Origin: Terebella lapidaria
Taxonomy: Eukaryota > Annelida > Polychaeta > Terebellida > Terebellidae
DNA: 64,000 nucleotides
Reading direction: 5' to 3'
Assembly (NCBI GenBank): GCA_949152475.1
Contig: OX424560.1
Span: 2,790,001 to 2,854,000, forward strand
The translations under genes and the position numbers were made by a program. The notes below the pieces were generated by a model. It did no database searches and had not been told where the DNA came from. It saw only the letters and a program-made list of their open reading frames with translations. Below, one piece after another: positions 27,161 to 62,400 of the stretch (within the stretch, counting starts at the first letter, position 1; each line of letters opens with the position of its first letter).

Positions 27161-27166
27161 AGGTTT

Positions 27167-33368: not shown

Positions 33369-36300
33369 GTAAGATTGTTCTCCAATCGGGATACTGTAGC
33401 TTATACAAAATTAATAATCATGCGATAGCTTTATCATTATAAAGATCTTTTATTCACTTGCGAGTGGCAATACTATATAAAGTATGTAATTGTCTCAAAG
33501 TATCCAATGTTTTGAGTATATAATTACCTGAAAGCATATTTTCAATGTAATGAATCATATAACTGAAATGTTGTTTCCAATACTAATGCATGACCTATTG
33601 CTGTAAGCATATATCCCAGAACCGTTCATACATATATCTCGCTATTTGCTATACGCATGCGCTGCTTCTGTCACGTGAACTGAACAAGAGAACAGCCATC
33701 TTTGATTTGTGCATGCGTTATGGCGATAAGGCGATGTTCACTTTCACTTTGCATGAGCGGATTGTACGCGCATTGGCTTCACGAAACTACCTCTTTTCCA
33801 GGAAAAAAAACTGCACGACCACGGGTAAATCAATTCTTACACCATTCAGTGCGAGACATACCTATGGAAGGTGTAACAATTGTGAACGCGCATGACTGTC
33901 TGTAATTAATGTCTACCCATTATGTTATCCTGATGGTTCGTTATTGTTTTGATATTTAAGTTACTTTATTGCTCATGCATCGTGCATATTTTCTGCATTC
34001 TATCATATCATATCTTTCAGACATGTTTGTGTGTGTATTTGTACATTTATTATGAACTATATGGTGTTATTCTCAATTCAATATGTTTTATATCCTTATA
34101 TTTAAGTACTGATTTCAACCCAGCTTTTCATTTCACATATATTCACTTTTACGACATTTGACTTAAAGTAACATAGTCCGTTTTGGGAATTTGTTATATA
34201 ACAACTGGTCAGTATATTTTTGAGGATATAGCACCAATAGATCCTACAAGCAACGCCCGGACGACCCCACATTGAAGTTTGATAATACTGAGAAAAACGC
34301 AGGAATTGTTTACATTTGCGCAAACAAAAAGTGTTGGCATTTATTGTCGTTCACAAGGAAATCAGAGCTAATAAGCTGTATTTTTCCATTATTTCTGATG
34401 TTTCGGCATCACTGCATGGGAACTGTTTTGCACGAAACTATGCCAAAAAGTTGATTTTCAATGTCAAATTTTGACGAATTTGAGGTTGCAGTGAGAATTT
34501 TTCAGTGTTCGTCTGCCTTGTAGGCATCTACTGGTCACTTTCGCAGGGAAAACCAAAAACCGATCATGGCACTTTAATGGATGAAGAGCCGACAAAGTTG
34601 TTGGCTCAATCAATGCACCGAATTTATACTGGTAATATAACAAAATCTTTATCTGACATACCCTCGAAACATTATACATGTACATGTATGTACAAGACAC
34701 ATGCTATAAGGACTCCAACTTGGGATTTCCCTGGCAACATTTTACATTGTACTCACAAATTATAGACATTTCCTTCAGGGATAAGTTAAAGGTTGTACAC
34801 GGATACCTGGCTTGTATTTGCTTTAATGGGTGACTTTACCTTCACACGCATCAATCTCTTCCACGCACCTTGTGTACCAGACACACACCTTGTGTACCAG
34901 AACACCACACCACACACGCTTCCTCGTCTCTCAGGGGGTCTTTCACGCCCGACATTCGGCACCCATTGGTGAAATGCTCCATTCCCCAATCTCTCACTTG
35001 TATGCCTCAGATGCATTTCCAACAGCTGTGTACACTGCTTTACTTCTGGGTATTTCACGCTCATCACTTGGCACCGGCACCGGCACACGCAGATAAGATT
35101 TCCGTTCCCGGCCGCTGGTCATTGCCTCCCAGCACACAAGCTAGCTAGGTGAAGGGCAGAAAACACGTGAGTCCATGAGGAGAGTTGCTGACAAAGTATG
35201 ACCTTGCAGGTGCAGGTGTGGCGTGTACGAGAAGCGTGGACATCTGCTTTGTGGTGGACCAGTCCGGGAGCATCGTGGAGGGCGGAAACTACCGTAACTG
35301 GGACCTTGTCAAGGAGTTTGTTATTGACGTACTGCGGACCTTCACGGTGGGGTACGACCAGACTAGAGTAGCACTCGTAACTTTCGCAAACCAGGGAATC
35401 GTCCGCTTCAACTTGACTACGTATTTTGACGAGGCATCCATCGCTAGGGCAATCCGGGCAATCAGGCATGGAAACGGGCGGACGAACACGTACTTGGGTC
35501 TCCATAGAATGCGCACTGAGGTTTTCGGGACGTCATCCGACAGACCGGGCGTCCAAAACGTCGCTATAGTGATCACAGACGGCAAGTCGACCGTGAACAA
35601 CCAGTCCACGGTCCCGGAGGCCGTCTTGGCCCGGGACGAGGGAATCACAATTTTCGCCGTCGGCGTCACGGATCAAGTAAACGAGGATGAACTGAGGGCC
35701 ATATCCTCCCCACCTCAGGAGATCGACAAGAACTACTGGACACGACCGGACTTTGACGACTTGGTCGGCCTCGTACACACTCTGCAATCTGAGACTTGTC
35801 TGAACCTTGTTGCTGGTGAGTCACACACACAGAAGGTTATCGTCACATTCTGAAGATATTTGTGCCCGAAATTAATACGCGCGCTTGATCTCGTATCGTC
35901 ACATTCAATTGATTAGTGATGGATCCAGAATGCGCAATGCGCCTTGTCAAATTTTACATGTAGCTGACGCAGTCGGTTTATGAATATGCCCGAGTCATTT
36001 TCCCAATGATTGATGTACTTAATTTCAGTTTGAATTATATATGAGAAGTAGTTTAGTGTAGTGTAGACTTCTAACAAACTTTCGATGTGCTGACGACGAT
36101 GCAATATACATTTCATATTGTTGCTGAGCTTTCCATTTTGATCGTGCGCGTTTCAGGAGTCAATTTAGGAATTCGCTTTTAACACAACATTTTATTTCAG
36201 ATAGTTGATGCACAGTGTGTCTGGCAAATAGTAGTATATATATGTTAGCTCTCCGGGACTTCCGCGTCATCAATCACAACTTATTTACCACCTTTTGATC

Positions 36301-39300
36301 ACTTTCCGTTCACGGTTTGCGCCATGTTCTGTTGATTCCCTTAAGGCTGCGAGCAGGCGGACATTGCCCTCGTGATCGACTCGTCCAGTAGTGTCAGCAG
36401 GAGCGCCACCAACTGGCAGACCATGAAGGACTTCCTCAAACAGATCGTGGACAGACTCGTCATCGGGCCGGACCGTGTCCGTGTCGGCGTCATCAACTTC
36501 GCCGGGCAGAGCGTCATCGAGTTTTTCATCGACCAGCACACGAGCCGTGAAGCTCTCAAAATCGCGATCGACGCCATACAGCCGCTCGGCACGAGTACCG
36601 CGACGCACACGGCTCTTTTAACTTTGCGAACGGATTTCTTCAGCCGGGGCGACCGTCCACTTGTCAACAACGTAGCCATCCTGTTCACGGATGGAGGCTC
36701 CAGTGACCCCTTCCAGACGGCGATCGAGGCTCAGCGAGCCAAAGAGGCAGGCATCAGGATGCTCGTCGTGGGTGTCACCAATAACGTAGACGTGGACGAA
36801 CTTAGAGAGATTGCATCCAACAGACTCCTCGATGTATTTCAAGTGAACCAGTTTGAGAACCTGGTGGACGTACTTGACAACATAGTGGAGACGGCGTGCA
36901 CTGCCGAGGTCCTCCCAAACCGTGAGTTAATTGACGAGGGGCAATTTCTGATACACGAAGGGGTTTCGGGTGTCATTTCGGGTGTTGATTATTTTTTTTA
37001 CTGTGAAGCTTGGTTAAAATCGAAAGCAATGGAACCAAATGTTAACGAAAGAAGATGTGCCTTTAACATAAGCTTCACATCAATGTTCGCAACATATCGC
37101 ATGGCCTGAGTTATATAATATTTAGTTCTCTGTCGTAATACCTAAGATCCTAGATCCAAATGACTACGATCTTGATGAATAAAACATTAGTTTTTCTCTG
37201 ATGTTCTTCTGAATGTTGTGATCCAGTAAGCACTAATGTTGCGTAACCTTGAACTCTGTAACCTGCATGGAATTCATTGCTTCAAGTGTGAGCCAAATTA
37301 ACGTATATGTTGTGTCTTTTTCGATTATGACTAAGTTTCTACATTAATTTGCTATCGATACTGTGCGGTCAAAATGTACAGAACATTCCAAGATACCCGG
37401 TTCTTGCAGAGTGTGATATTGGGGACATAGCGCTGGTCCTGGACGGCTCCACGAGCATCGTCTATGAGGAAGCTTCCAACTGGCACAACGTGATGCTGGG
37501 ATTCGCTGAGGATCTTGTCTCGGCCTTCCCAGTGTCCTTGAACGGGTCCCATTGGGGCCTGGTTATATTCGATGACCAAGCCAGGATTGACTTCCAGCTG
37601 GACCGATTTTACTCGCAGGAGGAACTGACGGAGTATATCAGGAGTATACCGCACCCGGGCGGGGAGACAAACATTGTAGACGGTCTCCGGAAGACGCAGC
37701 AGCTCTTTAGTCCGGTGGGGACTACCGTGCCGGTCCGTGGGGACAGGCCCAACGTCAAAAACATAGCCTTTCTCGTGACGGACGGACAAGCGAACGTGGA
37801 GTGGAGACAGCTGCCCTCCGTCGCGCAAGACACGAGGGCCCTTGGCATCGAGATCTTCGCCATCGGAATCACAAGTGATGTCGACGAGGAGCAGCTGCGA
37901 CAGATCGCCTCGCCGCCGGTGGAGGAACACGTCTTCGTGGTGTCCGATTTCGAGAGTCTCCGTCGAGAGATCGTGAATATCCGGGAGAGAGCGTGCCAGA
38001 CCACGACCACCAGCACAACAACCACCACTACAACAACAACGCCTCCCCCGACTACAACCACCCCGCCACCTACAACAACGACACCGGAACCTACAACAAC
38101 AGCACCTCCCACGACCACCCCACCACCAACCACCCCCGCCCCCACCACCCCCGCCCCCACGACCCCTGCCCCCACAACCCCCGAGCCCACGACCCCCGAG
38201 CCCACGACCCCAACCCCACCAACCCCCAGTCCTCCCACTCCATCTCCTGTCACCACCCCAGCCGTGAATCCTTTGCCGTCAACAACGACATACTCCCCTG
38301 TCAGTAAGTACATCGTACATATATCACCAACGCTTTCCAGTATTGACAGGGTGTCATAATGTAATTAGTAATTAGTAATGCGGATTGAACGAATGCTTTT
38401 AACACTTTTGGAAGAGCAAAAGACAACAATATAGATTCATTGGAAAACTGCTGTTTCAGACTTGTTATTTTAACAAAAGGATAAAAATAATTGCTAAATG
38501 AGTCATTCCCTATACCAGTCTGTGACGGAGTTGGTGCAGACATCATTTTCGTGATTGACGGCTCCGGAAGCATTAACGAGGTGAACTTCCGGAAGATCCT
38601 GCAGTTTGTTGGTGACGTCATCTGGCGCGTGGACGTGGAGGGTGGGAAGGTGCGCGTGGGCGCGATGACGTTCAGTGACCGAGCGGAGATCGTGTTCCAC
38701 TTGGATGAGTACACGACACGCGGCTCCATGGTGAGCGCGGTACACAATGTCCGGTACATGAGGCAGACAACCAATACGGCGGACGCTCTCAGGTGAGTGA
38801 GAACAGGGGCTCCAGGATATTGTGGAGCAGGGGCGTATCCATAGAGCCTGAGACACCGCGAGATGGCAATTTGCTCTAGATTCGTGCTGAACATTAAACC
38901 ACGAATTCGTGGTTATTAAACCACGAATTTCACACGGCCTGTTTCGCATTCAAGGCTGGTGTTTAAGACTATATCATCGGCTAATAAGCCGATTTGCTAA
39001 ATACAATTCGGACTGAGATCAGTTTGACACCAAAGAATCAGATACTGCAAAATAAATTAAGCTCATATGTATAGCCAAGATGATAACTGACAATTTCCTG
39101 TCCCCTCCCCTACCCTCTCCAGCGTGTTGCGTACACAAATGTTTATCCCGAGCCGCGGGGACCGCTCCAACCGTCAGAACATCGCTGTCATAGTAACGGA
39201 CGGCGAGAGTAATGACAAGGACGCTACCCTGCGGGAAGCCGTGGACGCGAAGACTGCCGGGATACGCGTGTTGACTGTCGGGATTGGGTCGTGGCTTGAC

Positions 39301-42300
39301 GTGAACGAGCTACAGAACATGGCGAGCTATCCACACGAACAGAACATGTACCATGTCATGCGGTTTGATGCCCTCACAGACCTCACGGACACACTCAGGG
39401 ACTACATATGTACCAGTGAGTCCCGCCATGTGTGGTTTATCGCTCTCATAATTCGTGTTTCATTCGGTAGTCATATAGCATTTTGAAATACTGCAAATGG
39501 AATGGATGATGAATTTACCTCCAATTCTGGATAGTCACATACAGAAAGGCCGTCAAATAGGCCCCTACCATTGGTATAATAAGTATTCACTGTTTTTTGA
39601 CAAAGTTACACTCTTCTCATCCATACCCCCACGTTATTGTTCCAGATAACCTGGCATGTTCGTCTGGTCCCTGTCGGAATGGTGGTCGGTGTATAGACAT
39701 CCCCAATGACTACGAGTGTGACTGTATCCCGCCATTCACCGGCAAAACCTGCACTGATCGTACGTGGATAGATCTTTACAGCTACTCTCTCTGGAACAAA
39801 CATCTAGTTATATTCATATCAATTACTAGTTTATAACACCGTAAATGCAGTTCATTATGGTACATGCACATGCTGCATCCAAACGTACTTATATATTGCG
39901 TACCCTTTACCTCTCCAAGTTTGTCGAGAAGCGGCGGATATCGTGATTGCTATGGACGCGTCCGGAAGTATCGGCAAGGACAACTTCCGGGCGGCTATAG
40001 ACTTCCTGTCTACCGTCGTGGAGGGTCTGGCCGTGGATAGAGTCGTGGGGTCGTCTGGGACCAGGCTGGGATTCCTGACGTTCGCCAACACCGCCGTTCT
40101 CAAGTTCGACTTGAATCAGTACAATAACAAACAGCAGATCCTGGAGGCCCTGAGTGTCATGTACACGGGCGGTACGACCAACACGTCAGACGCCATCAGG
40201 TACGGGGCATTATGAAGGATGTAGGCATAATACAAGATTTGAGCATAACAGAGGCACATAACACGTTACGCAGGCATCACACAGGACGTAGGCATAACGC
40301 AACCACATAACACAGAACGTAGGCATAATGCAGTCGCATCACACATGACGTAGGCATAACGCAACCGCATAACACAGAACGTAGGCATAACGCAGTCGCA
40401 TAACACAGGACGTAGGCATAACGCAACCACATAACACAGGACGTAGACATAACGCAACCGCAAAACACAGGACGTAGGCATAACGCAACCACGTGACACA
40501 AGACGTAGGCATAACCCAACCGCATAACACAGGATGTAGGCGTAAGCGGCCGCATAAAGTGGCCCATATGAAGAGTTTGTTCAGATATTGACAATCTGAG
40601 AGCACTAGTGTGCATCTATGAGTGTTGATTTGTACAGGTAATGTATTTTGGGAGGCCATTATGTATTGGTGAATATACATCATATTCATTTGGTTATTCG
40701 AAATGAATACGTATGTTTGAATCATGGATGTCCCACCCCTGGCAGGTATGCGCGGGAGAACATGTTTACCCCTGGCGCGGGTGACCGGTCGGGCGTACCG
40801 AACTACCTTGTAATCTTCACGGACGGGCAGGCGGACGACCCGATGGCGGCGTGGAGCGAGGCAATAGCCGCTCGGGAGATGGGCATACAGATCCTGGCGG
40901 TCGGAATCGGTCGGGGGATCAATCGCTTTGAGCTGGAGAGTATCGCCAGTCAACCCGCGGATAAAAACGTCATCGTACGCTCGGGATTTGATGGTCTGGA
41001 TGACGCCCTGCGCCGAGAGATATACTCCTCGATATGTAACAGTGAGTGCCAACTGGGTCCTCATCATTTAGAAGCAACGATAATATTATGTTCCTCGAAT
41101 TCTTTCACTCTGTAGATACAGGTTTGTGAGAACGCTTTATATATATGGATCGGTCCGGTCTCAATAACTTGTAATGAATTTATGGTACGAGAGCAAAAAT
41201 CAGAGCATATTGTTTCCACGTTGAGATGAACCTCCAATGTTGTACTCGTATTACACTTGCAGACAACCCGATGTGTTCCACGAACCCCTGTTCTAACGGA
41301 GCCCGTTGTACAGACACGATGAACGGCTACTTGTGTGGGCCTTGTCCGCCCGGCTTCTCAGGAACGCGATGTCAGAAAGGTCAGTGGCCTTGCTGTACAT
41401 GTAGAATACAACGTACACGTATAAGTACAGTTAGAGAAGTATGCACTTAATCCTATATTGTCAATATTGTCGTGAACTCGGAACATAGTATGCCACCATT
41501 CTGAGAGAAAAAAAAACTGCCATTATATGTCGTTTATGGAGCTTCACATGTCGGAAAATATAGATCTAATTCAGTAATGAGTATATTACAATCAGCGAGG
41601 AATGTCCGAATCATGATACACTTTTGCCAAAAATCAACAGAGACTTCAATGCTACAGTACATGTAAGTACGTGACAATGACCTCACCAGAGAGTGTAATA
41701 TCAACTCTTTGACCTTACCCTGCACGATTCTCGTTTCTCTCTCAGGTTGTGACGGTCAGGTGGACGTGACATTTGTACTGGACAGCTCAGGCAGTATCCG
41801 GATAGAGCGCTACCCCGTCATCAAAGAGTTTATCGTTAACATCACGAAGCAACTCGACGTGCGCAGTGACGCGGTACGCGTGGGTCTGGTGTACTGGAGC
41901 GACAGCGCTTTCGTACACTTCTGTCTCAACTCGTACAACACGCAACAAGACGTCATCAATGGTATACGCAGTGCGCCTTTCCTCGGCGGCCGAACGTTCA
42001 CCGCGAACGCCCTAGAAATGATGCGCACCAGGATCTACCAGCCGCAGTGCGGCGACCGCGTCACCGCGCGTAACATCGCGATCATTGTGACGGACGGGAA
42101 CTCTAACATCCAGGAGCGGCGGACCCTGCCCGAGGCTGCCCTCCTCAGGGAGATAGGCACGCACGTGATGGTAGTGGCTGTGGGACGGAAATTCGCCAAT
42201 ATGGTTGAGCTGGAGGGCATGGCTAGTGCGCCGATAGACGAGAACATCTACACGGATATTGACTACTCCGAGCTGCAAGACATCGTCAGTCTTCTCAGCG

Positions 42301-44535
42301 ACAGCACGTGTGACGGTACGTAACCATGGTAACGAGGACGTGGTAATATTGCATACCGGGGTTTTCTGTAATATGGCCCTGGGCGATCTTTCGGAAAATA
42401 GCATCTCACCAAATAAAAATCGAATCCGAATGATGGGCGATCTTTCGGAAAAAAACGTTTTCCACTAAGTTTTGAAATGCCAGAGAAATACCCTATACCA
42501 GAGAAATATCAGGCAATAGAAAAAGGAATCGGTGCCTCTAATATGAAAATATACACAACTCGGTATATCATTAAGCTCTTTTATTCCAGTTACATATTTC
42601 ACACGAAATATTATAGTACAAGTAATGCCGGTCATATAGTTTAGGCCTATAGTATACTTGAAACTTTCTGCGGTGCAAGTAACTCCTCACATAGATTTTG
42701 ACGCCCCTATTTTAAGCCAATCAGCGTAACAGTCACCCCGTTGTGATTTTGACGCCCCTGTGACAGTTTCGTTATGTACAAACTTGACACATGTTTGATG
42801 GAATATATCCATGTTCAACAAATCGTTTACATTTTCATCGAAAATACGTTATAGAAAAAAATCACATCACCGAAAATTAAAAAAAAAATGAATCCGAATT
42901 ATCGCCCATGGGCCATCTTTTGGGATTTTTTCCCAAAAGATGGCCCATGGGCCATAAATCGGGTGGGCCATCTTACGGGAAACCCCGGTAGTCGTCCAAG
43001 AAGTAATGTGGTGGATCATCACACCATCATCACCCGGTAGCTTATTGAACTTGTCAACGTACTTTGTAAAGTCATGTTCAGGAATCAACTGTTCAGGATT
43101 AACTCTTGTAAGGAGCCGCCAGAGAATTGCCCAGAAACATTAACCACCATCGTTTCTCTCTCCCCCCCCCCCCCCCTCCTCATCAAGATGTGAACGAATG
43201 CCTCAGTGACCCGTGCCGCAATGGCGGTGTGTGTCGGGACGACTTCAAGCGTTACTACTGTGACTGTCCCTCGGGCTTCGCGGGCTACAACTGCGGGGAG
43301 CGTGAGTATCGCAGATATCTCCCTGAATCAACCCTACGTGGTTGGTTCAGGGAAGTAGTAGGATGATGAGATACATTGATCATTGCAGGGGCGGATTTAG
43401 AGGGTGGCGTATGGGGCCCGCCCCCCCCCCCCCCCCCCAGACCCCTGAATTTTTTTTTTTAATAACTATTTCTCCATTATGAACTCCAAAGGACCCCTAA
43501 AATACACACAGAAGTGCTATAAAAACTATAAATTTCCATTTTTCCCGGGGGCTTACAGCGTCCCCCGGACCCCCAGACCGGAATGATCTCTAGCTTCGCT
43601 CGATCGCTCCAGTCGGTATTGCCAATATCTGCCTGGGTCCCCCCTAACACATCTTCCTGGATCCGCCCCTGGATCATTGTGACCATGTCTTGTGTGAGTT
43701 GAGGTTCATGATGAGATCATGATGAAGCGATATAAAATATAGCCTATGACAGTGCGTGACAAGGACTGTAGTTGTCATAACGTAGAGCGAAAGTGTATCA
43801 AGGTTGGTCATCAGTTGATCAGGTCACGAACGGAAACGGCTTCATGGTATCGGATATGCATTTTATGGGTATGACAGCGGCATATCGAGCACATGCGATC
43901 AGTGTTATAGAGTATATTTATACCATTTTATACTTCGTTGAACTCCGTGTATCCTGTCTGCAGGTTGCTCACAGCGTCTGGATGTCGTGTTTGTGCTGGA
44001 CATCTCGGGCAGTGTCAAGGAAGTGTACGAGTGGATTATAGAGTTCACTAAGACGGTCGTGTACGGTCTAGATATGACCTTCGACAAGACACGAGTCGCC
44101 GCTCTGACGTACGCCTCCGACTTCAACGACAACGGCGATTTCTTCCTGAACCAGTACATCTCTAACAAACAGGGCGTCATCAACGCCTTGAACTTTTACC
44201 ACGATGGTGGGCGTACAAACGCGCAGGCTGCCCTACGCGCGATGCGCACTGAGCATTTCTCGGCGACTGCCGGCGACCGTATCGGCGTACAAAACGTCGC
44301 TGTGATCGTGTCAGACGGGTACTCGAACGTACAAGAGAGTAACACAATACCTGAAGCAGCAGAGGCCAAACGTAGTGGTATAGACGTGTACAGCGTGGCG
44401 CTGGGTGAGAACCCTAACATGGTCGAGTTGAACGCCATCTCCAGTGACCCAGATAGTCAATACGTCATCAGACTGCGCGACGGTAGCGACATCCAGCGGG
44501 CGGCAGAGGACTTACTCTTCCAGCTCTGTCAGTAG
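33272..44535 (+). CDS. Secreted mosaic protein: 7 vWA domains, 3 EGF modules, mucin-like linker (13 exons)
   Basis: The joined exons total 4,803 nt (1,600 residues plus TAG). Residue order: signal peptide (1-~29), vWA1 (~34-234), vWA2 (-426), vWA3 (-~630), Thr/Pro mucin-like linker (-724), vWA4 (-913), EGF1 (-951), vWA5 (-1143), EGF2 (-1182), vWA6 (-1372), EGF3 (-1410), vWA7 (-1600). All seven vWA domains keep the MIDAS DxSxS motif (for example DQSGS, DSSGS, DISGS) and begin and end with a cysteine, as in matrilin and collagen-VI-type A domains. All module borders are phase-1 introns with GT-AG ends, which is what makes the model self-consistent. Likely role: metal-dependent extracellular adhesion or matrix assembly. 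No collagen repeats, transmembrane segment or GPI signal are seen, so it is not a collagen. Orthology is not assigned. Confidence 0.9.
35210..35815 (+). CDS. vWA/EGF gene exon 2: vWA domain 1
   Basis: A complete vWA domain in one exon. It has MIDAS DQSGS, the metal-binding Thr in GRTNTYLGL, and ITDGKS. The first cysteine is in VACTRS and the last in SETC. The acceptor is ambiguous by 6 bp: TTGCAG at 35,209 or GTGCAG at 35,215, both in frame, so two residues may vary by NAGNAG-like splicing. The donor is GTGAGT at 35,816. Confidence 0.9.
36346..36921 (+). CDS. vWA/EGF gene exon 3: vWA domain 2
   Basis: Acceptor TTCCCTTAAG and donor GTGAGT, both phase 1. MIDAS is DSSSS, followed by LFTDGGS. 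A Cys begins (GCEQAD) and ends (ETAC) the domain. Confidence 0.88.
37410..38303 (+). CDS. vWA/EGF gene exon 4: vWA domain 3 plus Thr/Pro mucin-like linker
   Basis: The acceptor GTTCTTGCAG sits directly before AGTGTGAT. vWA3 has MIDAS DGSTS and VTDGQA and ends at RERACQ. It is followed by ~95 residues of almost pure Thr, Pro, Ala and Glu in TTTPPP and [10 protein letters not shown] repeats, a likely heavily O-glycosylated stalk. The donor is GTAAGT, phase 1. The low-complexity part is expected to vary in length between alleles. Confidence 0.9.
38519..38792 (+). CDS. vWA/EGF gene exon 5: vWA domain 4, N-terminal half
   Basis: Acceptor CCCTATACCAG, MIDAS DGSGS. It ends at ...NTADALR| with donor GTGAGT in phase 2, in the middle of the domain. 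Confidence 0.88.
39123..39415 (+). CDS. vWA/EGF gene exon 6: vWA domain 4, C-terminal half
   Basis: The acceptor CCCTCTCCAG completes the split Ser codon. The exon contains [18 protein letters not shown] and ends at DYICT with donor GTGAGT, back in phase 1. Confidence 0.88.
39646..39759 (+). CDS. vWA/EGF gene exon 7: EGF-like module 1
   Basis: A 114-nt phase 1-1 exon encoding one EGF module with six cysteines (pattern C-x4-C-x5-C-x8-C-x-C-x8-C), including PCRNGGRC and FTGKTC. The acceptor is GTTCCAG and the donor GTACGT. Confidence 0.88.
39920..40199 (+). CDS. vWA/EGF gene exon 8: vWA domain 5, N-terminal half
   Basis: Acceptor CTCTCCAAG, MIDAS DASGS, ending ...NTSDAIR| with donor GTACGG in phase 2. 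The split falls at the position equivalent to the vWA4 intron. Confidence 0.87.
40216..40550 (+). repeat. 31-bp minisatellite in the vWA5 intron
   Basis: About 10-11 copies of GGCATAACGCAACCRCATAA/CACAGGACGTA lie wholly inside the intron that divides vWA5. Minus-strand frames through it are artefacts. Confidence 0.93.
40746..41041 (+). CDS. vWA/EGF gene exon 9: vWA domain 5, C-terminal half
   Basis: The acceptor CCCCTGGCAG completes an Arg codon. The exon contains [17 protein letters not shown] and ends at SSICN with donor GTGAGT, phase 1. Confidence 0.88.
41263..41379 (+). CDS. vWA/EGF gene exon 10: EGF-like module 2
   Basis: A 117-nt phase 1-1 exon with six EGF cysteines ([20 protein letters not shown]). 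The acceptor is ACTTGCAG and the donor GTCAGT. Confidence 0.87.
41746..42315 (+). CDS. vWA/EGF gene exon 11: vWA domain 6
   Basis: The acceptor CTCTCTCAG precedes GTTGTGAC. MIDAS is DSSGS, followed by [10 protein letters not shown] and VTDGNS. The domain ends at DSTCDG with donor GTACGT. A whole vWA domain in a single exon. Confidence 0.9.
42356..42988. mobile_element. TA-flanked MITE in the intron after vWA6
   Basis: The termini CCGGGGTTTTC and GAAACCCCGG are inverted and flanked by TA (42,354-42,355 and 42,989-42,990), consistent with a Tc1/mariner-type non-autonomous element. Inside its right part is a perfect hairpin with 22-bp arms (42,904-42,925 and 42,931-42,952). No transposase is present. 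Confidence 0.7.
43188..43301 (+). CDS. vWA/EGF gene exon 12: EGF-like module 3 (calcium-binding type)
   Basis: A 114-nt phase 1-1 exon opening with DVNEC, the calcium-binding EGF signature, then PCRNGGVC and FAGYNC. The acceptor is preceded by an unusual uninterrupted C run (about 43,162-43,176) that serves as the polypyrimidine tract. The donor is GTGAGT. Confidence 0.88.
43386..43671. mobile_element. hAT-type MITE in the last intron
   Basis: 286 bp with inverted ends CAGGGGCGGAT / ATCCGCCCCTG and a perfect 8-bp target duplication GATCATTG (43,378-43,385 and 43,672-43,679), as hAT elements make. It contains a poly-C and a poly-T run near 43,421-43,460 and no coding sequence. Confidence 0.85.
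43964..44535 (+). CDS. vWA/EGF gene exon 13: vWA domain 7 and stop
   Basis: The acceptor CTGTCTGCAG precedes GTTGCTCA. MIDAS is DISGS, followed by [10 protein letters not shown] and VSDGYSN. The domain closes with LFQLCQ and TAG, so the protein ends right after the last disulfide cysteine of the domain. Confidence 0.9.
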
Positions 44536-46480
44536 AGGGAGCCACATGGTAGGTATGACACACGTTGTTATCGTTTCAATGAAAGACAGTGTGCATGCAT
44601 GTGCTGACTAGCTTTTTTGTTGCTGGCAGCTCTTGCTGTTTATCTAAAATGTATAGAGAATTCACACGAGGAAACCTTTTTCATGAATTAATATACATGT
44701 TTTAATATTTCACTGTCAAGCATATATATATATGTATATGTGTGAATGTGTCAAGAATTGTTGCAATATGTTTATTGACAGGTTCTGCTTCTAACGTTGT
44801 AAATTTCCTGTGTTCACGACTCTTCATCACACGCGACCACTGGCGGAGATGACGTCATATTCCTTCCTGCCGATGACGTCATAGACTCACAAAATACCGC
44901 GGTCCCAACGTTGATATACATATATCATTCATTTTGTTTGTGATGTTTACACTACTTGGTGATACTGACTGGGTTATCATTGTGTATAATTATCGTGTAA
45001 TTTTGCATTTATCACATTTCATGTAGAATATAAGCAGTTATATATATTTATAGACACGATATTTTATACATGCGGATGTGATAAGCGTATCACTTGATGT
45101 TCCGATGTCAATTAGTGAGTTACCGTTTCATGCCAAACAAGTGTTTTCTGGTGTGAGGCTAAATTGCTCAGTGTCCCCAATTTCTGCGCGATATATATTC
45201 ATGCAAAATGTATTTTGGACATTTACATTTTCATTTACTTCAGTGAATTTATAAAATCCACTGTCGTCCACTGCACCGCATCAATACATGATCATTTAGT
45301 ATTCGTTGTGTAGTTTTTTTTTTGGTATTTTTTAAAACGACGAGTCTGCTTAAAAGAAGGAGGAATTTGTATACTAGTACAACATTAAGAAGTTATATAG
45401 GAGCATATTCCGTACCTATTTATTATAGTCTCTGTTGAAGACAACAACAAGGCTGTGGCGTTTTATATTTGATTTATTTTTGACACTCACTGGTAATGTT
45501 TTGACCTTTACTATACAGAAGTCATACATAATGAGGTTCCTGTTTGCCACCAGGATCGCCACCATGTAATTCGGGTGTAGATAAACCATAGAAACAGTCT
45601 ACTGTGCCATATAATACAAAAACGTAAAAATGTTGCATCAAAATTTTGTCATGTTTGTTTTTGCATAATGCAGACAATGAACATGACGTTTTTTTTGCAC
45701 TTTTTGGGCATAATAGACTGCTTCATAGCCCCAAAAGCACATGGCATCAGCAGGTACCTCATTGAAAAAAGACAAATGCACGCTTAATGGGGCATGTCAT
45801 ATACTCATTCAACAGGTGGCAGCATTGTACTTGGGGTATTTTTTTGGCGCTAAATCACCAACGAAAATCGTCTATAATCAATAATGACGTAAATGACAGC
45901 GGTTGAATCACGTTTATATTGATAACGCCAGAAAAACAGAATAGTGACGTCATTTTACCCCAAAACCACTGCTGCCAGCTGGCGACTGCAGCTATGTACT
46001 AAACATGCCCCATTTGATGTTCAAAGTCTTATATCTGGAAATGTTTTGATGTGTGTAATGTTTTCACTGTTGAAGCAATCCTGGTTTAAATGTTGCAAAA
46101 CCGAAAAAGGGTAGATTTGTAAATATTGGACAAGTAAAGAAAACTCTTTTTCAAATTGTTCGAAAATTGCGATGAATAATATAGTTGGGATGGTTAAACT
46201 GAACTGTAATATCTCGATACACACCAAAATGACATATTTAATACACAAGCATGTGCAAAAGTACAGGGCACTCGGTGTTAACTACATTGTGCAATAAGAG
46301 GAACCTAGAGGTACAAGGTGTAATAATGTGCAAGTAATTGCTTGCTATAAGTCAGATATAAACTGTATTATAGTGTAAATATTTATATAGGATAAATTGT
46401 AAACACAATGCGAGCATGTCCGGACATTCGATTTCATGACTACTGGGTACTTCTTGAATGCAAAAATAAACAACACAATA
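44536..46480 (+). other. Probable 3' UTR of the vWA/EGF gene
   Basis: A/T-rich sequence after the stop, without open frames. Candidate poly(A) signals AATAAA are at 46,465-46,470 and about 46,658. The end is uncertain because no transcript data are available. Confidence 0.45.
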
Positions 46481-46735
46481 CGAAACTCTCACGTAGGCCT
46501 AATAGGAAATGCTAGATTTTTCCATTCAATTCGCATTTTTTATACAAAGACATTCTTTGATTGAAATGTTTTGTATTATATTTTGTACATTTCTAGATGT
46601 TTACAATTAAAAAATATATGCATATTTATGCACAGGCGAATCAATGGTGCTTCTGTTAATAAATATAAAAATCAAATTTGGTTTTCATTGTATTACTTGA
46701 ATCATATCGATATACCACACACTATTCCCGAATAA
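46060..46735 (+). repeat. Diverged direct repeat of gene 3' end, copy 1
   Basis: It aligns by eye with 49,340-50,010 through many landmarks: GAAGCAATCC, GTAAATATTGGACAA, AATTGTTCGAAAAT, ACTACATTGTGCAATAAG, TAATGATGTGCAAGTA, GAATCAATGGTGC, ATCATATCGAYATACCACA. Divergence is substantial, so this is an old duplication. Confidence 0.8.
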
Positions 46736-46739
46736 GATA

Positions 46740-47330
46740 TCTAATACGGCTTCCGGGCGTCATATTATGTGATGCACTCAGAATATCTGCATCCGGTGAC
46801 TAGAGCCGGAGGATTATGGGTACCGTAATTGTGCGTATCTGGACCCGAGCTTGGAGAGCTATTGATGTAGAGCTCTGATCTTACCCTGCTCTATCTAGGA
46901 GCCGAGCCAGTCCATATGTGTCAAAAAATACATTACCATCACTCCTTCATACACAATCGTACATTCTACTCTTCTCCCAAACCAAGTTCTAACGAGAGTA
47001 GATCTCGGATCATTGTGTAGTACAAATAACAAACCGAGGGAGTACGGTCATTGTGTAGATCGAGTGGGCTAGTGTCTGTGCCACACAAACTTAGTTATCC
47101 TCGGATGTCACACTTTATCGCTCAGTGACTGTCTGTGCTGGTTAGTCTGACTAATATATTGTAATGGGTTCTTCACCCTTCTGTGACGTCTTGATAAACC
47201 GGTTTTCTTGGGAGGTGGGTGAGTTGTTATTTAACCGGAGCTGTAACGGTAAAATTCCGGGAAACTGCTACTGCTGTACGGTTGCACTCCGGCTAGAAGT
47301 CTTTGAAGGTTGGTAGCGTGGTCTGGAATG
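46740..47330. other. Non-coding stretch between duplicated 3' ends
   Basis: CG-containing sequence without a recognised exon. Together with the array beyond it, it looks inserted between the two diverged repeats. Confidence 0.35.
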
Positions 47331-49339: not shown

Positions 49340-50010
49340 GTACAGTAGAAGCAATCCAGTACTTTTGAAGCAAACGTGGTGAAATCTTTCAAAACCGCGA
49401 AATGAGTAGGTTCGTAAATATTGGACAATAGGAGTGAAAATGTTTTCTGAATTGTTCGAAAATTTTTGGCGATGGATATTTAGCTGGGTTAGGTGAACAT
49501 CACGATACTACATGTATCTTCATACACACCAAACGTACAACGTATTTTGTACCCATGCGTTTGCGAAAGTACAGCTGACTCGATGTTATTTGGTGTCAAC
49601 TACATTGTGCAATAAGGGAAAATAATGGTACAAAGTGTAATGATGTGCAAGTACTTGCTTCTTGTAGAGTCGAATAATCATAAACTGTACTATAGTATTG
49701 ATATTTATACATTATAGGCTATAATTGTGCAAAAACAATCGTGCTTGTCTGGAAATTCGATTTCATAACTACTAGATTTTTCGTTGAACACAAAGAAAAA
49801 TGAAATGCTAGATTTTTTTCATTCAGCTCGCGATTTGTACATAACAGCATTGTTTGATAAATCGTTTTGTATTAGAGTTTGTGCATTCTAGATATACAAT
49901 TCGAGCATATATTTGTGCACACACGAATCAATGGTGCATTTGTTAATATAGTTATCAAATTTTGTAATCATATCGACATACCACAATTCAATGCCGAATA
50001 AGCTATTCCA
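49340..50010 (+). repeat. Diverged direct repeat of gene 3' end, copy 2
   Basis: The second copy of the sequence at 46,060-46,735, same orientation, about 3.28 kb downstream. No vWA exon precedes it, so only the 3'-UTR-like part is duplicated or survives. Confidence 0.8.
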
Positions 50011-50577: not shown

Positions 50578-52419
50578 CTAATAAAAGGAAAATTGGAGGA
50601 AATTCCTTGTCCGCTTCTGTTCTTTGTCGTACGGGGCAAATCTGTAGATAATGAGAGGCAACGGCGAAATCCTTGACAAAAAGAAACCAAAAAATGAAAC
50701 AGTTAACACCAAGATAATAGACATATTGAAATAATTTTCTAAATGACACCCCTCATACTCTTCACTACACGCTTGAGTGATTCTGATTCCAAATATCGTG
50801 GCAACAAAAAACTTCCATAAGTCTGGAAATAAAAGTGCTGCTATGTGATATGAAATAAACTCCGAACCACCAAGTAGTATTATAAACGATATTTCACATA
50901 CAAATTGGGTGGTTAAATTGAGGGGTGGTTCAGTATCTGGCATGCTTTTCCACATATGATGCATAGTACAATACAATGACCTGAATTTTGTGAAGACAGG
51001 TTGGAAGCACCAGTAGCTTTGGTTTTGTACGGTTTTGTGCTGGTATTTCCGTGGACACTCTCCGCCCCTCGTACAGGACAAAGAAATGTGTATCACCGCA
51101 AACAACAACAAGACTCCTGAAAGCACGAGAATTATGACAGCGATGGGAGTCAAGAAAAATACCACACACACAAATAGGGGCGTCCAGATGATAGCACGAA
51201 ACGGTCTGCTGACTTCAAAATATTCAAAACACAGTTTCATCAGTGTCGTCGTAGGTAAATATATAGAAAACTCTGCAAACATAAACATGATTATCTGCAT
51301 GTAGTAGATATTCGGTCCAATCAACGTAAATATCAAGATACCGCCGAAATAAATACCAATGTAAACAGTCATGAAATAATAAGCTATAGCTAATTTGACA
51401 GAGAAGAGACAAACAGATATCGGATACAAAAGTAGCACAATCATGAGTATTATCAATGATTCAATACTCAATGAAAATTCCCTGAATAAATTAAAAAATC
51501 CTGAAAGATTTATGAGATACACCATGAACGTTAATGACATGAAAACGTGCATCACCGCCAGAACCACTGCGTACATTATTTGAAGTCCTCTATATGCTTT
51601 ATACAAAGCTTCCCGTTTTATATCTTGTCTACTGTCAGTTCTATGTAAACCAAAAACACACAATAGTGCTATGGAATACGTGCAAAACATGGCTAACCTC
51701 AGAAAGGCAATTCGACATTCATTAATAATCCCCGCTATATAACATTGGTACTTGGATACAAGACATTTGTCGTGCCATTCGAGGTGAGTTAAATTTTTTT
51801 CGCAATAAGCAATGCGTTCCAACGTGCCATTCGCGTGTTCCATTGTGCCATTGGCGAGTTCTGACGTAACATTTATTTGCCATGGTATTTGCCACGGTAG
51901 TCCCTGAGTAAACATATTCATATCCGTTGACAATGTCATGTTATCAAACACTGAATCATGGTTTTCACCATTATCGAAATGTGACTCCTCCACGGTTTTT
52001 GTGATGCGCATGCAAACTCTACTCAGTCTGTTATTGGTGCTAAACATATCCGAGAAAACCTGACATTGTCCAGGGTTTGATATAGAAATCATGTACAAAA
52101 CTCCAGAAAACAGTAACAACAAAACGGACAAAATCAGACTCCAAAGGACCGTGTGAATTACTCCTTCTCTGTAGCATGTACCTCGCAGTTTCTCGAGATG
52201 ATCCAGTATTCTGTGTGATTCTGGATAGTTTGAGTGGTCTCGTTGGGCAATCAGATCATCCTCGATGAAGGCGTCTTCTTGTCCTTGGACTATGTGGACT
52301 GAAATGGACTCGATCAATGCAGAATCTGATCTCAGTCCATCAGTTGGACATGGAGACCTAATTAGTTCTGTTTTCAGTGAATATGAGGACAAATTTGCAT
52401 GTTCCTGATCCCGTATCAC
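50578..52419 (-). CDS. Mab-21/cGAS-like gene exon 2: C-lobe end and multi-pass membrane region
   Basis: 613 codons and a TAG stop, beginning VIRDQEH after acceptor ATTTTCAG. The 170-bp intron (52,420-52,589) is GT-AG, and the join restores the family's LK-x-x-RD...SY-LKT spine. A competing 39-nt microexon ending at a strong GTAAGT donor (about 52,493) would also keep frame but would interrupt that spine, so direct joining is preferred. The rest is an unusual polytopic membrane region with no similarity I recognise. Confidence 0.87.
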   Translation of the reverse strand: MIRDQEHANLSSYSLKTELIRSPCPTDGLRSDSALIESISVHIVQGQEDAFIEDDLIAQRDHSNYPESHRILDHLEKLRGTCYREGVIHTVLWSLILSVLLLLFSGVLYMISISNPGQCQVFSDMFSTNNRLSRVCMRITKTVEESHFDNGENHDSVFDNMTLSTDMNMFTQGLPWQIPWQINVTSELANGTMEHANGTLERIAYCEKNLTHLEWHDKCLVSKYQCYIAGIINECRIAFLRLAMFCTYSIALLCVFGLHRTDSRQDIKREALYKAYRGLQIMYAVVLAVMHVFMSLTFMVYLINLSGFFNLFREFSLSIESLIILMIVLLLYPISVCLFSVKLAIAYYFMTVYIGIYFGGILIFTLIGPNIYYMQIIMFMFAEFSIYLPTTTLMKLCFEYFEVSRPFRAIIWTPLFVCVVFFLTPIAVIILVLSGVLLLFAVIHISLSCTRGGECPRKYQHKTVQNQSYWCFQPVFTKFRSLYCTMHHMWKSMPDTEPPLNLTTQFVCEISFIILLGGSEFISYHIAALLFPDLWKFFVATIFGIRITQACSEEYEGCHLENYFNMSIILVLTVSFFGFFLSRISPLPLIIYRFAPYDKEQKRTRNFLQFSFY

Positions 52420-53441
52420 CTGAAAATTGGATTTCGCTCTTATTTGAAAGGTATTTTCACCGAACATTTGTGATGATAATGGTTATGATTACTTACAGTC
52501 AGAAGGTTCATGAAGTTCACACTTGATAGTAAAAGCTCCCCAAATATACAAAATATACTTATTTATAGATTTGTTATAGAGATACCAACCTTCAGTGTAA
52601 TGAGATTCTTTCTGTCTTCCGGTGACAAGAGGCTCTGGTCCACCGTAGGAAAGGACAGCTTCCAATAGTCTCCTGCCGGCACCAGGTGACAAACACCCAC
52701 CTTGTCTTCAATGGCTTCACGCAGTCTGAGGTCTCCATTGAATGGCCAGCAAGCAGAACTCTTGGGAATCTCAAAGGCAATTGTAAGGTCTACTTTACTA
52801 TTGGTTCCCTTGTAAGAGAAGTACACTGAGACTGCTGGGCCGTGTCGTTCTGTACGTGTGATGCTGAAGCCAGCAGGTAGTGCGCAGTTCTTACAGGCGT
52901 CGGCAACCAGTTTCTCGAAGTGTTCTTGTACGCGGCTAGCATGGAGAAACTGATTGTTGTGACCTTCAATGCATGTGGCACCAGCTTTTCTACATTCTTC
53001 GCAACTCATGAACATGAGCCATATGTCTTGAGGATTGTTTCTGAAAGATAGCTGGAAATACGACTTCTGACTTTTCACTTTCCCGTCTTCAGTGAGGGTC
53101 CTTGGTTTGGTTGTGGGAGGTGTGTCACGGCGTATATCACCCGCGCCATTTAACCAGTTTTCCAGCACCAACAAATAGTCAAAGTCACTCCCCGTAGTGA
53201 AGGTTCCTTCGGCTGCACTCCCGACTTCTCGAATCTGTCCTACAAATCTGTCACAACAGTCCTCCAACAACACTTGTGCATATATCATGTGAACTACTTT
53301 TCCAAGTGCTTTTTGTACGTCCTTGTATTTCCTGATTTCGGAGTCAGACATGCACGATCCGTATTTATGGAGTGCGTTGTCGGCGTAAGTAGGATATTTA
53401 TTTCTCTTCCAAGACTTATGAGCTTCTGCTATTGATGCCAT
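50578..53441 (-). CDS. Membrane-anchored Mab-21/cGAS-like nucleotidyltransferase (2 exons, 897 aa)
   Basis: Residues ~1-310 form a Mab-21-type nucleotidyltransferase: G74-S75 of the GS motif, D86/D88 (SDFDYLLV) and D218 (VDLTIAF) are the three acidic catalytic positions, followed by WKLSF and RKNLITLK-VIRD of the C-lobe spine. A charged linker (~311-370) leads to a first membrane helix (~371-396), a ~120-residue loop with five N-x-S/T sites (444, 467, 474, 481, 493), then about 7-9 more hydrophobic helices up to residue ~885. With no signal peptide, the enzyme domain is probably cytosolic and the loop luminal or extracellular. Family members such as cGAS make cyclic dinucleotides on sensing nucleic acid; many Mab-21 proteins are inactive, but this one keeps the acidic triad. 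The Mab-21 C-lobe seems shorter than usual. Ligand and product are unknown. Confidence 0.88.
52590..53441 (-). CDS. Mab-21/cGAS-like gene exon 1: nucleotidyltransferase core
   Basis: 284 codons from ATG at 53,441 to ...NLITLK in phase 0. The donor is GTTGGT, weaker than consensus. It carries GSAAEGT, DFD and the third acidic residue. Cys147, Cys150, Cys157 and His161 form a CEEC-x6-C-x3-H arrangement that could bind zinc. It starts at the first in-frame Met. Confidence 0.88.
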
Positions 53442-59655: not shown

Positions 59656-60079
59656 AATTGGAGCAGTCGGCAGGATTTCAGCTTCCTGTGATCCAGGGCC
59701 GACTGTATCCAGAAGGTGGGTTCCTGTACGCACGCGGATCCAACTAGGAGTCTCCGATGTCAAAAATTGCAGCCGGTACATAACCACGGTTGTTGCTGGG
59801 GAACATTGCACTATAAGCCAATGCATAGGTCACGCAACATCACATAACCACGTCGTTGCAGTCTTCTGTGTTCGTCTCCACGGTCTGGTGATCGTCGGCT
59901 GGTCGTGTTCTGCGAGAGACAAAGCGTGCACCCCCTCCATACGAATGGACATCACCTGGACAATGCCAAGATCGCGTGTAGCTGACCAAGGTAGCTGATT
60001 ATGTGGACTGTTGTCTTACTTGCGACGTTGTGTTGTTTTGATCAATCAGCTGATCAGAAACCAAAACATTCGTCAAGCC

Positions 60080-60640
60080 AGTGACCTGTTCAGAACAATG
60101 GGGTACATTATCGAAAGATGCACTTTGTTTGTGTCTTCCTGTGAATCGACCCTCGTTGCCATATAAAGACATTCCAGTCTTCACGGTTCAATCATACATG
60201 GCCACTCCCTTTCTATCCCCGGACTATGATGATGACCACCGACGTCTAGTACATGAGGACTACCTCGTCATGCAACTCCAAGTCGCCTCTGTTGATGAAC
60301 CTGGTGTCCCAGTCACTGAACTGGAGGTAGAAAAGGCCGTCAGATCACTGAACTCCGGGAAGGCCGCAGACATCCATGGACTGAAAGCAGAACATCTTAA
60401 GAAAGCAATGCCCACTATCCTACCTGTGTTGACCCAGCTGTTTAACATTCTCCTGCACAACAGAAAGTATCCAGAGACCCTCAAATCTGCCTACACGTTA
60501 CCAGTCCATAAGAAAGGCAAGGATCGGCTACTACCAGATAACTATCGAGGCATAACCATCACCCCAATCCTCGAAGAGACACTAGAACACGGTGTCCTGA
60601 AGAGCAGCCTCCTCTAGGCAGATCTCCAGTATGGCTTCAC
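60080..60640 (+). pseudogene. Truncated LINE reverse transcriptase, fragment 1
   Basis: An uninterrupted run encodes the RT N-terminal part: VEKAVRSLNSGKAADIHGL, LKSAYTLPVHKKGKD and NYRGITITPIL, the finger region of non-LTR retrotransposon RT. It stops being homologous near 60,640, just before LINE fragment 2 begins at its endonuclease domain. 5'- and 3'-truncated. The clade is uncertain (RTE/CR1/jockey group). Confidence 0.75.
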
Positions 60641-62285
60641 TGGAATTTGTGGCCATGACTGATAACATTTGTATACTCGGTGACTTCAATCTGCATCTTG
60701 ACACACATGTCTCTCGCTTCAATGATCTGATGAACTCTGTGGAACTCGTCCAGCATGTCACTGTTCCAACTCATCGTGGCGGACACATCCTTGACTTTGT
60801 GATTACTCGGTGTGATGATGCACTGTTCTTCATGCGTGGTGTCACAAATGAAGGACTCTCAGACCACTATTGTGTCTATTTCGATGTTACTAGCAGCATC
60901 GTTCGACAAAAACATCACAAGGCCTCGGTGAGAAAGTTACGAAGGATAAATGTCGAGCAGTTTGCAAATGACTTGTCGGCGAGTTTTACTGCAAATAGCG
61001 CTGTTCCTGGACCAGTGTCTCTTTACGAGAGATACAATGCAGTGATCACACGTGTTATGGATCGACATGCTCCACTGAGTGAGGTCACACCTAAGCTAGG
61101 GAGAAGAAAAACTTGGTACACAGACACCATCCATGAGGCCCGTCGTGTACGTCGTAAGCTGGAAAGGAAGCATCGAAAGACTGGTCTGGTGGTTCACCTA
61201 CAGTCGATGATGCAAAGAAGGGTCACTTCCAATCCAAGCTGAAGGATTGTGATTCTCGGAGCATGTTCAAGACCATCAAGGGGTTGATCCAGCCGCCGGT
61301 GGAGATGTTCCCTTCCGACAAGAGTGACTCTCAACTGGCAGGTACCTTCGCTAAATACTTCAGCGACAAGGTTGATAACATCCGGATTATGCTGGATAAC
61401 TCAGCCATTGATGATGGCAGGGATCTCCCAGACTGTGTGTCTGCCCAGCACGTGTTGGAATCGTTTCCCTTGCTGACGGTTGAACAGACCAACAAACTCA
61501 TTGGCAAGTCACCAACGAAATCCTATGCCTTGGATCCTCTCCCAACGTGGCTCCTGAAAGACCCTGTAGTCTTGCAGTCAGTGGTTGGTGAAGTCACAAC
61601 ATTGATAAATGCCTCTCTATCATCCGGGACAGTACCAGCTGGTCTCAAAAAGGCCATAATGACACCACTGCTGAAGAAGGCTGGCTTAGACCACAACCAC
61701 TGCAAGAACTTCAGACCAGTTTCTAACTTGGCATACATCGGAAAGCTCATGGAGAAGTTCGTGACCAGGTCTATCACTGACAATATGCGACAACATGGCT
61801 TGTTTGATGTATACCAGTCAGCCTATCGTAAGGGTCACAACGTGGAGACGGCACTCCTGCGAGTAAAGAATGACATCGACATGGCACTGGACGAGGGTGA
61901 TGGCATGCTCTTGCTCTTGACAGATCTCTCCGCTGCCTTTGACACAGTGGATCACGCCCTGCTGCTGAAAAGGCTATCAAACGTGATCGGTGTGCGAGGA
62001 ACTGCACGATGCTGGCTGGAGAGCTATCTTCAGGATCGATCCCAGTGCATGGCGTTGAGTCTACTGTGACAGCCCTTCACACAGGTGTGCCTCAGGGGAG
62101 TGTGCTGGGGCCACTGTTGTTTCTGTGCTACGTCCTGCCACTGGCCAGAGTCATCGACAACCATCCTGTATGTAGGCATGGGTATGCAGACGATACCCAG
62201 GTCTACGTGAGATTCAAGTTGGGTGACTTACTCTCCCTTCAACGGGCCATTGCTACACTCGAGGCTTGTGTCAGCGATGTAACAA
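60640..62285 (+). pseudogene. CR1/L2-type LINE, endonuclease plus reverse transcriptase, frameshifted
   Basis: It reads C-terminal endonuclease (ICILGDFNLHLD, then GLSDHYCVYF) at 60,655-61,240, a frameshift near 61,230, RT fingers and palm (PVSNLAYIGKLMEKF; TDLSAAFDTVDH) at 61,263-62,050, and a second shift near 62,050 before PQGSVLGPLLF and the catalytic YADDTQVY at 62,180-62,215. The N-terminal endonuclease and the 3' tail are missing. Domain order and motifs fit the CR1/L2 side of the non-LTR tree. Not active. Confidence 0.85.
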
Positions 62286-62289
62286 GTGT

Positions 62290-62400
62290 GAGGTCACAAA
62301 CGACAGAGTTATGCGATGGGCATTGTTCCTACAATCCTTTCGATTCAGAGTGGAGGTGATCAAGCATCCCTTAATGTTGGAACCGACTATATGAGTCGTT
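62290..62400 (+). mobile_element. Short Ty3/gypsy RNase H remnant (fossil)
   Basis: A short stretch resembles the C-terminal end of gypsy RNase H (MRWALFLQSFRFRVEVI, then a DYMSR-like ending). Broken; it may be part of the same old gypsy element as 54.3-59.3 kb. Confidence 0.55.

Follow-up and report, generated by a model that had tools for sequence, protein, structure and literature searches.

Here we present a gene class of the annelid Terebella lapidaria in which a Mab-21/cGAS-type nucleotidyltransferase (NTase) is followed, in one open frame after splicing, by a predicted polytopic membrane module. The member described in detail lies in a window of 64,000 nucleotides (GenBank assembly GCA_949152475.1, contig OX424560.1, positions 2,790,001 to 2,854,000), where it occupies 53441..50578 of the minus strand and comprises two exons encoding 897 amino acids. 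The sequence itself shows the exon-intron structure, the acids of the active site, an NTase core that extends at least into the start of the helical lobe, the hydrophobic C-terminus and the repetition of the arrangement over many loci. The protein is a variant of the Mab-21/cGAS type and belongs to a gene class rather than standing as a single gene; its unusual feature is the polytopic module placed after the C-terminal helical lobe (C-lobe). We give roughly even chances to the reading that it is a membrane-tethered cGAS-like enzyme, in which the membrane module would control nucleotide output within one polypeptide. If this is true, cyclic-dinucleotide signalling could be wired to membranes or to the outside world within a single chain.

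The known role of cGAS-like enzymes is to sense nucleic acids in the cytosol, and membrane-anchored members of the wider Mab-21 group include MiD49, MiD51 and ITPRIP-type proteins.

Gene structure and recurrence in the genome

Exon 1 (53441..52590, minus strand, like all features of the gene) starts at the first ATG after an in-frame stop and contributes 284 codons (residues 1-284) that hold the Mab-21/cGAS-type core. A GT..AG intron of 170 bp in phase 0 (52589..52420) separates it from exon 2 (52419..50578), which has 613 codons and a stop at 50578-50580. An earlier note on this DNA had placed a frame-keeping GT-AG intron inside the C-lobe, and three lines of evidence now support the splice. 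First, the alignment with 7lt2, a Mab-21 domain protein and the only distinct PDB chain at E <= 10 for the spliced NTase plus C-lobe query (E 0.0045), covers residues 199-304 and thus spans the junction 284/285. Second, the splice sites recur: a phase-0 GT donor after residue 284 is present in the window gene and in 12 other loci that were read (L032-L039, L041, L043, L046, L047), as well as at L045, which is outside the class by structure, and in a fragment at C4:38407 kb. The AG acceptor is found in the window gene and in ten loci (L032-L037, L041, L043, L046, L047); at L038 the predicted acceptor place reads CG, in the broken copy L040 the predicted donor place is one base off register, and the acceptor side of L039 and L040 was left out of the acceptor count. 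Third, the database protein P0001, considered below, runs a few residues past the junction place and then stops, like an unspliced exon. Six other Mab-21 genes of the genome that were read are all without an intron at this place, the frame continuing through it.

The 761.6-Mb assembly was searched with both halves of the protein, and all locus counts given here are lower bounds. Exon 1 as query found at least 16 matching places and exon 2 at least 15; these form exon pairs of the window type at no fewer than 10 close loci, five on C6 and five on C4. Four of the ten are intact through both exons (the window gene, L032, L033 and L034). Among the remainder, the frame is interrupted by a stop in exon 2 of L035, by stops in exon 1 of L038 and, in L039, by stops where exon 2 begins; L040 is broken in both exons. 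The exon-2 frames of L036 and L037 end early and further matches continue downstream in another frame, so these two have more introns or frame breaks. A more distant relative, L041 at C3:27335 kb, used as query, matched at least 20 places with exon 1 and at least 10 with exon 2, and for nine of the ten exon-2 places a Mab-21 exon is found no more than about 3.5 kb away; the tenth, 18 kb from such an exon (C6:11301/11319), was left out. Six of these nine loci were read (L041, L043, L046, L047, L052, L053) and three are known from the searches alone.

Altogether, at least 19 loci carry both halves within about 3.5 kb, so that the search for further Mab-21 plus multi-transmembrane (TM) genes that the earlier note had called for returned a whole class within the same genome. 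L045 (C6:11301225) is not among the 19, because the 3 kb that follow it showed no TM exon and exon 2 is next matched 18 kb on; the place at C4:38407 kb, with exon-1 fragments and a short exon-2 fragment, was also left out of the count. Since 19 loci carry both halves and 13 share the phase-0 donor, the architecture of the window gene is no annotation accident. It is accordingly very improbable that a soluble Mab-21 gene and a separate membrane-protein gene were wrongly joined, or that the gene is a pseudogene. Several paralogs do have stops or broken frames, as such an explanation would predict, but it has to contend with the adjacent exons and shared donor just described, with a Mab-21 C-lobe that begins in exon 2 and is followed by the first TM segment (TM1) in the same open frame, and with constraint on both halves.

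Two observations concern the neighbourhood of these genes. L033 and L034 form a tandem pair about 4 kb apart, with proteins 95-97% identical, about 40 kb from the window gene. Within the window, some of the sequence that flanks the gene on its 3' side recurs about 3.3 kb on (46066-46740 and 49361-50006, 74-90% identity in pieces); this is perhaps a remnant of an earlier duplication, and tblastn of the protein matched nothing there.

The nucleotidyltransferase half

The Pfam Mab-21 profile PF03281 matches exon 1 at E 8.7e-11, with 42.7 bits against a curated cut-off of 24.1, which places the protein in the family. On the spliced protein the match is at E 8.3e-10 (39.5 bits, residues 149-272), and NTP_transf_2 is found at E 1.2e-4. 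The GS motif (residues 74-75) with the acids D86 and D88 (53178..53222) and the third acidic residue D218, in KVDLTIAF (52788..52790), were read where the earlier note had located them, and the window protein thus has all three catalytic acids expected of a cGAS-like receptor (cGLR). We take GS with D86/D88 to be equivalent to GS...E225-F-D227 of cGAS; the cGAS alignment covers this segment both for L041 and for a profile of the family. A loose pattern recovers GS together with all three acids in 9 of the 12 TM-class rows, and in L037 the third acid is present by eye (KADITIAF) in a context outside that pattern.

The core also contains the pattern C-x2-C-x6-C-x3-H (residues 147-161, 52959..53003), a possible metal site. 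With a spacing of C-x2-C-x5-6-C-x3-H it recurs in seven of the 12 TM-class rows (window, L032, L036, L037, L039, L041, P0001) and in none of the six other Mab-21 rows; judged by its pattern, it may bind metal.

The helical lobe of the Mab-21 fold is tentatively assigned to residues 285-366 (52174..52419), at the start of exon 2, with 7lt2 aligned to residue 304. Mab-21_C (PF20266) has no match on the window protein, and exon 2 of L041 matches it at E 9e-4 and 19.8 bits, below the curated cut-off of 24.1. Profile evidence covers the NTase core and the first part of the helical bundle, the best profile stretches ending at position 333 (cGAS), 345 (8gjy) and 361 (8gjw) of 394.

Relationship to cGAS and to other Mab-21 proteins

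The NTase exon of L041 matches cGAS chains in the PDB, with a best E of 1.4e-4. A family profile built from nine rows of the TM class, including P0001 and L045, found 42 distinct PDB sequences at E <= 0.01, of which 36 are named cGAS (best E 9.7e-10) and two are named uncharacterized protein. The other four are 8gjy (cGAS-like receptor 1, presumably from coral; E 5.9e-9), 7lt2 (8.2e-8), MAB21L1 (2.4e-5) and 8gjw (4.2e-5), so that cGAS is a closer match to the profile than MAB21L1 is; these matches, too, reach over the first part of the helical lobe only. Like 8gjy, 8gjw is a cGAS-like receptor 1 structure; it is named as oyster in PMC12424679.

In a tree of 18 rows, the 12 TM-class rows are split from six other Mab-21 rows of the genome with support 100/99. 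Counted among the TM-class rows are L045 and P0001, for which no TM part was in view. The long branches of L047, L012 and L016 call for caution, as do the TM1 residues contained in the rows of the window group. The six other rows, drawn from 33 Mab-21 places unmatched by the class queries, are a MAB21L-like gene, two of ankyrin type, two of TPR type and one more. None of the six has a multi-TM frame in its 1.5-kb flanks or, for L010, in a further 3.1 kb downstream (L042); single hydrophobic peaks occur in L011 (2.0, inside the lobe) and in L013 (1.6, before the first Met). A seventh Mab-21 place, covered for the 3.5 kb after it only (L044), likewise has no multi-TM frame.

By eye, the repeats are ankyrin repeats before the Mab-21 domain in L010 and L016, and TPR-like helices after it in L011 and L013. 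These fused proteins resemble the TM class in carrying an added module and in belonging to the same genome, but differ from it in lacking a multi-TM frame in the 1.5-kb flanks and an intron at the junction place, and they stand apart on the tree. In section 5 of the survey of Li et al., 87% of cGLRs are reported as individual enzymatic proteins, and ankyrin, TPR and multi-cGLR fusions are the other forms mentioned (PMC9980059).

In a set of 5.8 billion proteins, the full protein had none at E <= 0.001 among 7998 scored, and exon 2 had none at E <= 10 among 7994. The NTase plus C-lobe query returned one match at E <= 1 among 1721, namely P0001, a protein of 283 amino acids from a 4801-base ENA contig, which matches the enzyme half at E 6.2e-9 and has no Pfam match at E <= 5. 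Viral contigs and prokaryote genome contigs held no relative by the patterns used. The earlier note knew of no described family with such an arrangement, and we too found no description of a polytopic Mab-21/cGAS-like protein by titles and abstract openings among the papers listed from the open full-text literature, supplementary tables lying outside that search.

Among known systems, cGAS and the cGLRs (PF03281) share with the class the NTase core, GS, the acidic triad, C-lobe similarity and the profile matches. The class differs from them by V or C before GS, by a longer distance to the third acid, by the CCCH pattern in part of its members, and by the phase-0 intron and multi-TM module after the C-lobe. 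MiD49/MiD51 and ITPRIP/DANGER proteins have in common with it a Mab-21 fold tied to the membrane; the anchor of the MiD proteins is N-terminal, whereas the module described here is C-terminal and polytopic. The earlier note described cGAS-like receptors of the Mab-21 family as normally soluble; not all Mab-21 proteins are. In D1A-C, D2B and D3A, according to the DANGER paper, microdomain I is predicted to contain a signal peptide, a TM region or both, and such anchors are of the N-terminal kind (PMC1784063). Transmembrane adenylyl cyclases and receptor guanylyl cyclases offer an analogy only: both tie nucleotide-messenger catalysis to a membrane module, and their catalytic fold is unrelated to that of Mab-21/cGAS.

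The membrane module and its first loop

TM1 (residues 371-396, 52084..52161, boundaries set by hand) has a hydropathy peak of 2.6. It is followed by loop 1 (residues 397-518, 51718..52083), by TM2 to about TM10 (residues 519-868, 50668..51717, placed by hand from the hydropathy of the window gene and three paralogs) and by a basic C-terminal tail (50581..50667; 5 K/R in 29 residues) that is predicted to be cytosolic. The earlier estimate of about 8-10 hydrophobic segments agrees with our counts: at a Kyte-Doolittle threshold of >= 1.6 the window gene has 8 peaks and the three paralogs have 9, 11 and 11, and splitting the long stretches by hand gives 10 segments, a split with which the K/R counts of the loops agree. 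On these hand-set boundaries the K/R content of the loops alternates as an N-in topology predicts. The several hydrophobic segments and the alternating charge together indicate an integral membrane protein, as judged from hydropathy and K/R counts on those boundaries.

Loop 1, which evolves fast and is predicted to be extracytosolic, has 122 residues with one K/R near the membrane, five N-glycosylation sequons (444, 467, 474, 481 and 493) and five cysteines, with C519 at its edge. These six cysteines, lying within the loop or bordering it, align across all four intact genes. A glycosylated loop with five sequons had been proposed; the sequons do lie between TM1 and TM2, but their excess over shuffled sequences is weak in the window gene (P 0.021) and absent in the three paralogs, which have 4, 3 and 3 sequons (P 0.09, 0.37 and 0.37). 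The sequon count was therefore rejected as strong evidence after the shuffle test, and we regard the sequons as weaker evidence than the six aligned cysteines.

The layout of the divergent loci is simpler: three or four peaks pass the threshold in the single exon read. An hhalign comparison of the two exon-2 groups (probability 92, E 6.3e-7) is significant from the C-lobe into TM1, and the TM part alone aligns weakly (probability 12, E 0.0024) over LY..YRGLQ..Y. In the window gene, the motif LYKAYRGLQIMY after TM2 (51571..51606) resembles the 4-TM relatives in the exon-2 group alignment, and LSG.........H (51088..51123) lies in a TM segment that aligns by eye with the fourth TM segment of L041 and L047. 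We infer that the window group has a 4-TM core with inserted segments, a reading that beyond TM1 draws on these two short motifs, compared by eye.

Sequence evolution of the two halves

We estimated omega (dN/dS) by region between the window gene and L032 and L033. For exon 1 as a whole it is 0.27-0.47 between intact paralogs. The NTase gives 0.47 (0.28-0.76) against L032 and 0.41 (0.29-0.58) against L033, the C-lobe 0.56 (0.28-1.23) and 0.45 (0.23-0.88), and the TM core at 518-790 0.69 (0.50-0.94) and 0.64 (0.48-0.84), respectively. Loop 1 (397-517) stands at 0.99 (0.60-1.84) and 0.86 (0.48-1.61), the C-terminus against L033 at 0.99 (0.56-1.78), and TM1 alone is too short to judge. Thus purifying selection acts on the enzyme half and on the TM core, loop 1 and the tail are indistinguishable from neutral, and constraint is stronger on the enzyme half than on loop and tail. 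Simulated neutral change to d 0.1 introduces about 6 stops into the 531-codon TM part; four of the genes nevertheless have both exons open.

DNA identity to L032 is a mosaic: the blocks of exon 1 agree at 123-140 of 147-150 positions each, residues 641-690 at 50 of 141, residues 691-740 at 115 of 150, and the part from 791 at 44 of 144. This could come from exchange between copies or from very fast change. Between close paralogs the C-terminal segments diverge almost past alignment.

These data bear on the idea that the NTase senses or signals in the cytosol and that the TM module is its effector, for instance a pore or channel that the enzyme half would open, with a purely structural role for the outer loop. 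Several channel families have a layout of this kind, four core TM segments and a loop that bears cysteines, and the hydrophobic core is strong and under some constraint at 518-790 (omega 0.64-0.69). We nonetheless consider an effector channel quite unlikely. Exon 2 of the window gene has no match in Pfam or NCBIfam and no PDB relative at E <= 10; the TM-part matches of L041 and L047 are all below curated cut-offs and none is a channel; and C-terminal segments as divergent as those above would be odd for a pore.

Proposed function

In the tethered-enzyme reading, the NTase would face the cytosol, TM1 and the following segments would anchor the protein in the plasma membrane or an endomembrane, and loop 1 would lie outside the cytosol and be disulfide-bonded. 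The loop and TM module would receive a signal, which might be an external or lumenal ligand, a partner protein or a membrane disturbance, and this would change the conformation or the oligomeric state of the NTase. The NTase would then make a cyclic di- or oligonucleotide, to be read by the STING proteins of the genome, where STING_LBD (PF15009) has 12 matches (best E 3.2e-17). We saw these genes at C2:5.72-5.74 Mb (four clustered), C3:50.76 Mb and C1:18.64-18.66 Mb. A more specific version is a receptor-cyclase for cyclic dinucleotides, encoded by an expanded gene family, in which a diversifying loop and membrane module would take up an extracytosolic signal, directly switch on a constant cGAS-type enzyme and feed STING; we put this forward tentatively, as rather less probable than its failure. 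The class offers a gene set in which the enzyme half stays constant and the membrane half varies, and its genome also has several STING genes.

Several observations count against the tethered-enzyme reading. The strict cGLR motif of Li et al. (2023), given in section 5 of the paper as h[QT]GS X8-20 [DE]h[DE]h X50-90 h[DE]h (PMC9980059), matched none of the 12 TM-class rows in our own regular-expression coding. In the class GS is preceded by V or C, vs Q/T in the motif, and the spacing to the third acid is 114-154 where measurable, vs 50-90. Single members depart further: in L039 an N replaces the third acid (KVNITLAF), L047 has EFV for EFD and is without GS, and in L035 the segment with the third acid is absent. 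Six of the ten close loci (L035-L040) are broken or unsettled. Weak constraint would also produce the fast change of loop 1, whose omega interval includes 1. Single-sequence structure prediction of exon 2 is helical with pLDDT 43, and STING genes in the genome by themselves make no link to the window protein.

The motif result has two further sides. With the same coding, the six other Mab-21 rows of the genome, the MAB21L-like L009 included, also gave no match, so our expression may be narrower than that of Li et al. Since the class departs from the published motif, a motif-filtered cGLR survey could miss it, and it may mark a blind spot of such surveys. Of the potentially active enzyme proposed in the earlier note, the probable active site is supported by the retained GS and acids, but the strict motif is not matched.

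The losses of a catalytic acid in L047 and L039 and the mismatch with the strict motif would also fit a membrane scaffold or pseudo-enzyme, in which the Mab-21 fold would be a binding platform, as in MiD51 and shrimp Mab21, and the TM module would only place it, with no nucleotide product. Some membrane-bound relatives in the Mab-21 group are not known to have cyclase activity. Against a pure scaffold, which would need none of the catalytic residues, GS and the three acids persist across deep divergence in nine of 12 TM-class rows, and by eye the third acid in L037, and the family profile is closer to cGAS than to MAB21L1. We regard a scaffold as the main alternative, possible but on balance doubtful. 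The shrimp Mab21 proteins are a precedent for it, reported to show no dsDNA or dsRNA binding and no cGAMP under the stimuli tested, yet to activate IKKepsilon (PMC12928593).

Other features of the window and the genome

A retroelement remnant at 9310-13270 (minus strand) is presumably Gypsy-like by its domain set: its two overlapping frames encode reverse transcriptase, RNase H and integrase. At 27151-27804 (minus strand), a 218-codon open frame is made up of arrayed repeats, each about 33 residues long (HHSGQFRKVSTPHSNLHNTSKHLMRKKYG...), and is probably a satellite read in frame. Several separate exons resembling von Willebrand A domains lie at 35179-44532 (plus strand); the sole such exon searched, 36345-37106, matched PF00092 at E 3.4e-36. 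LINE-like reverse transcriptase fragments occupy several frames at 60054-62356 (plus strand), where 61158-62066 matched RVT_1 at E 2.5e-9 and 60601-61239 had no match.

Elsewhere in the assembly, C417 (L055) holds a second stretch resembling COX1, two matches of which contain TGA codons. The contig C438 (L054) looks like the mitochondrial genome and reads sensibly in code 5; its order S1-nad2-cox1-N-cox2-D-atp8-Y-G, with nad2 and atp8 named by position, is one that we take to be typical of annelids.

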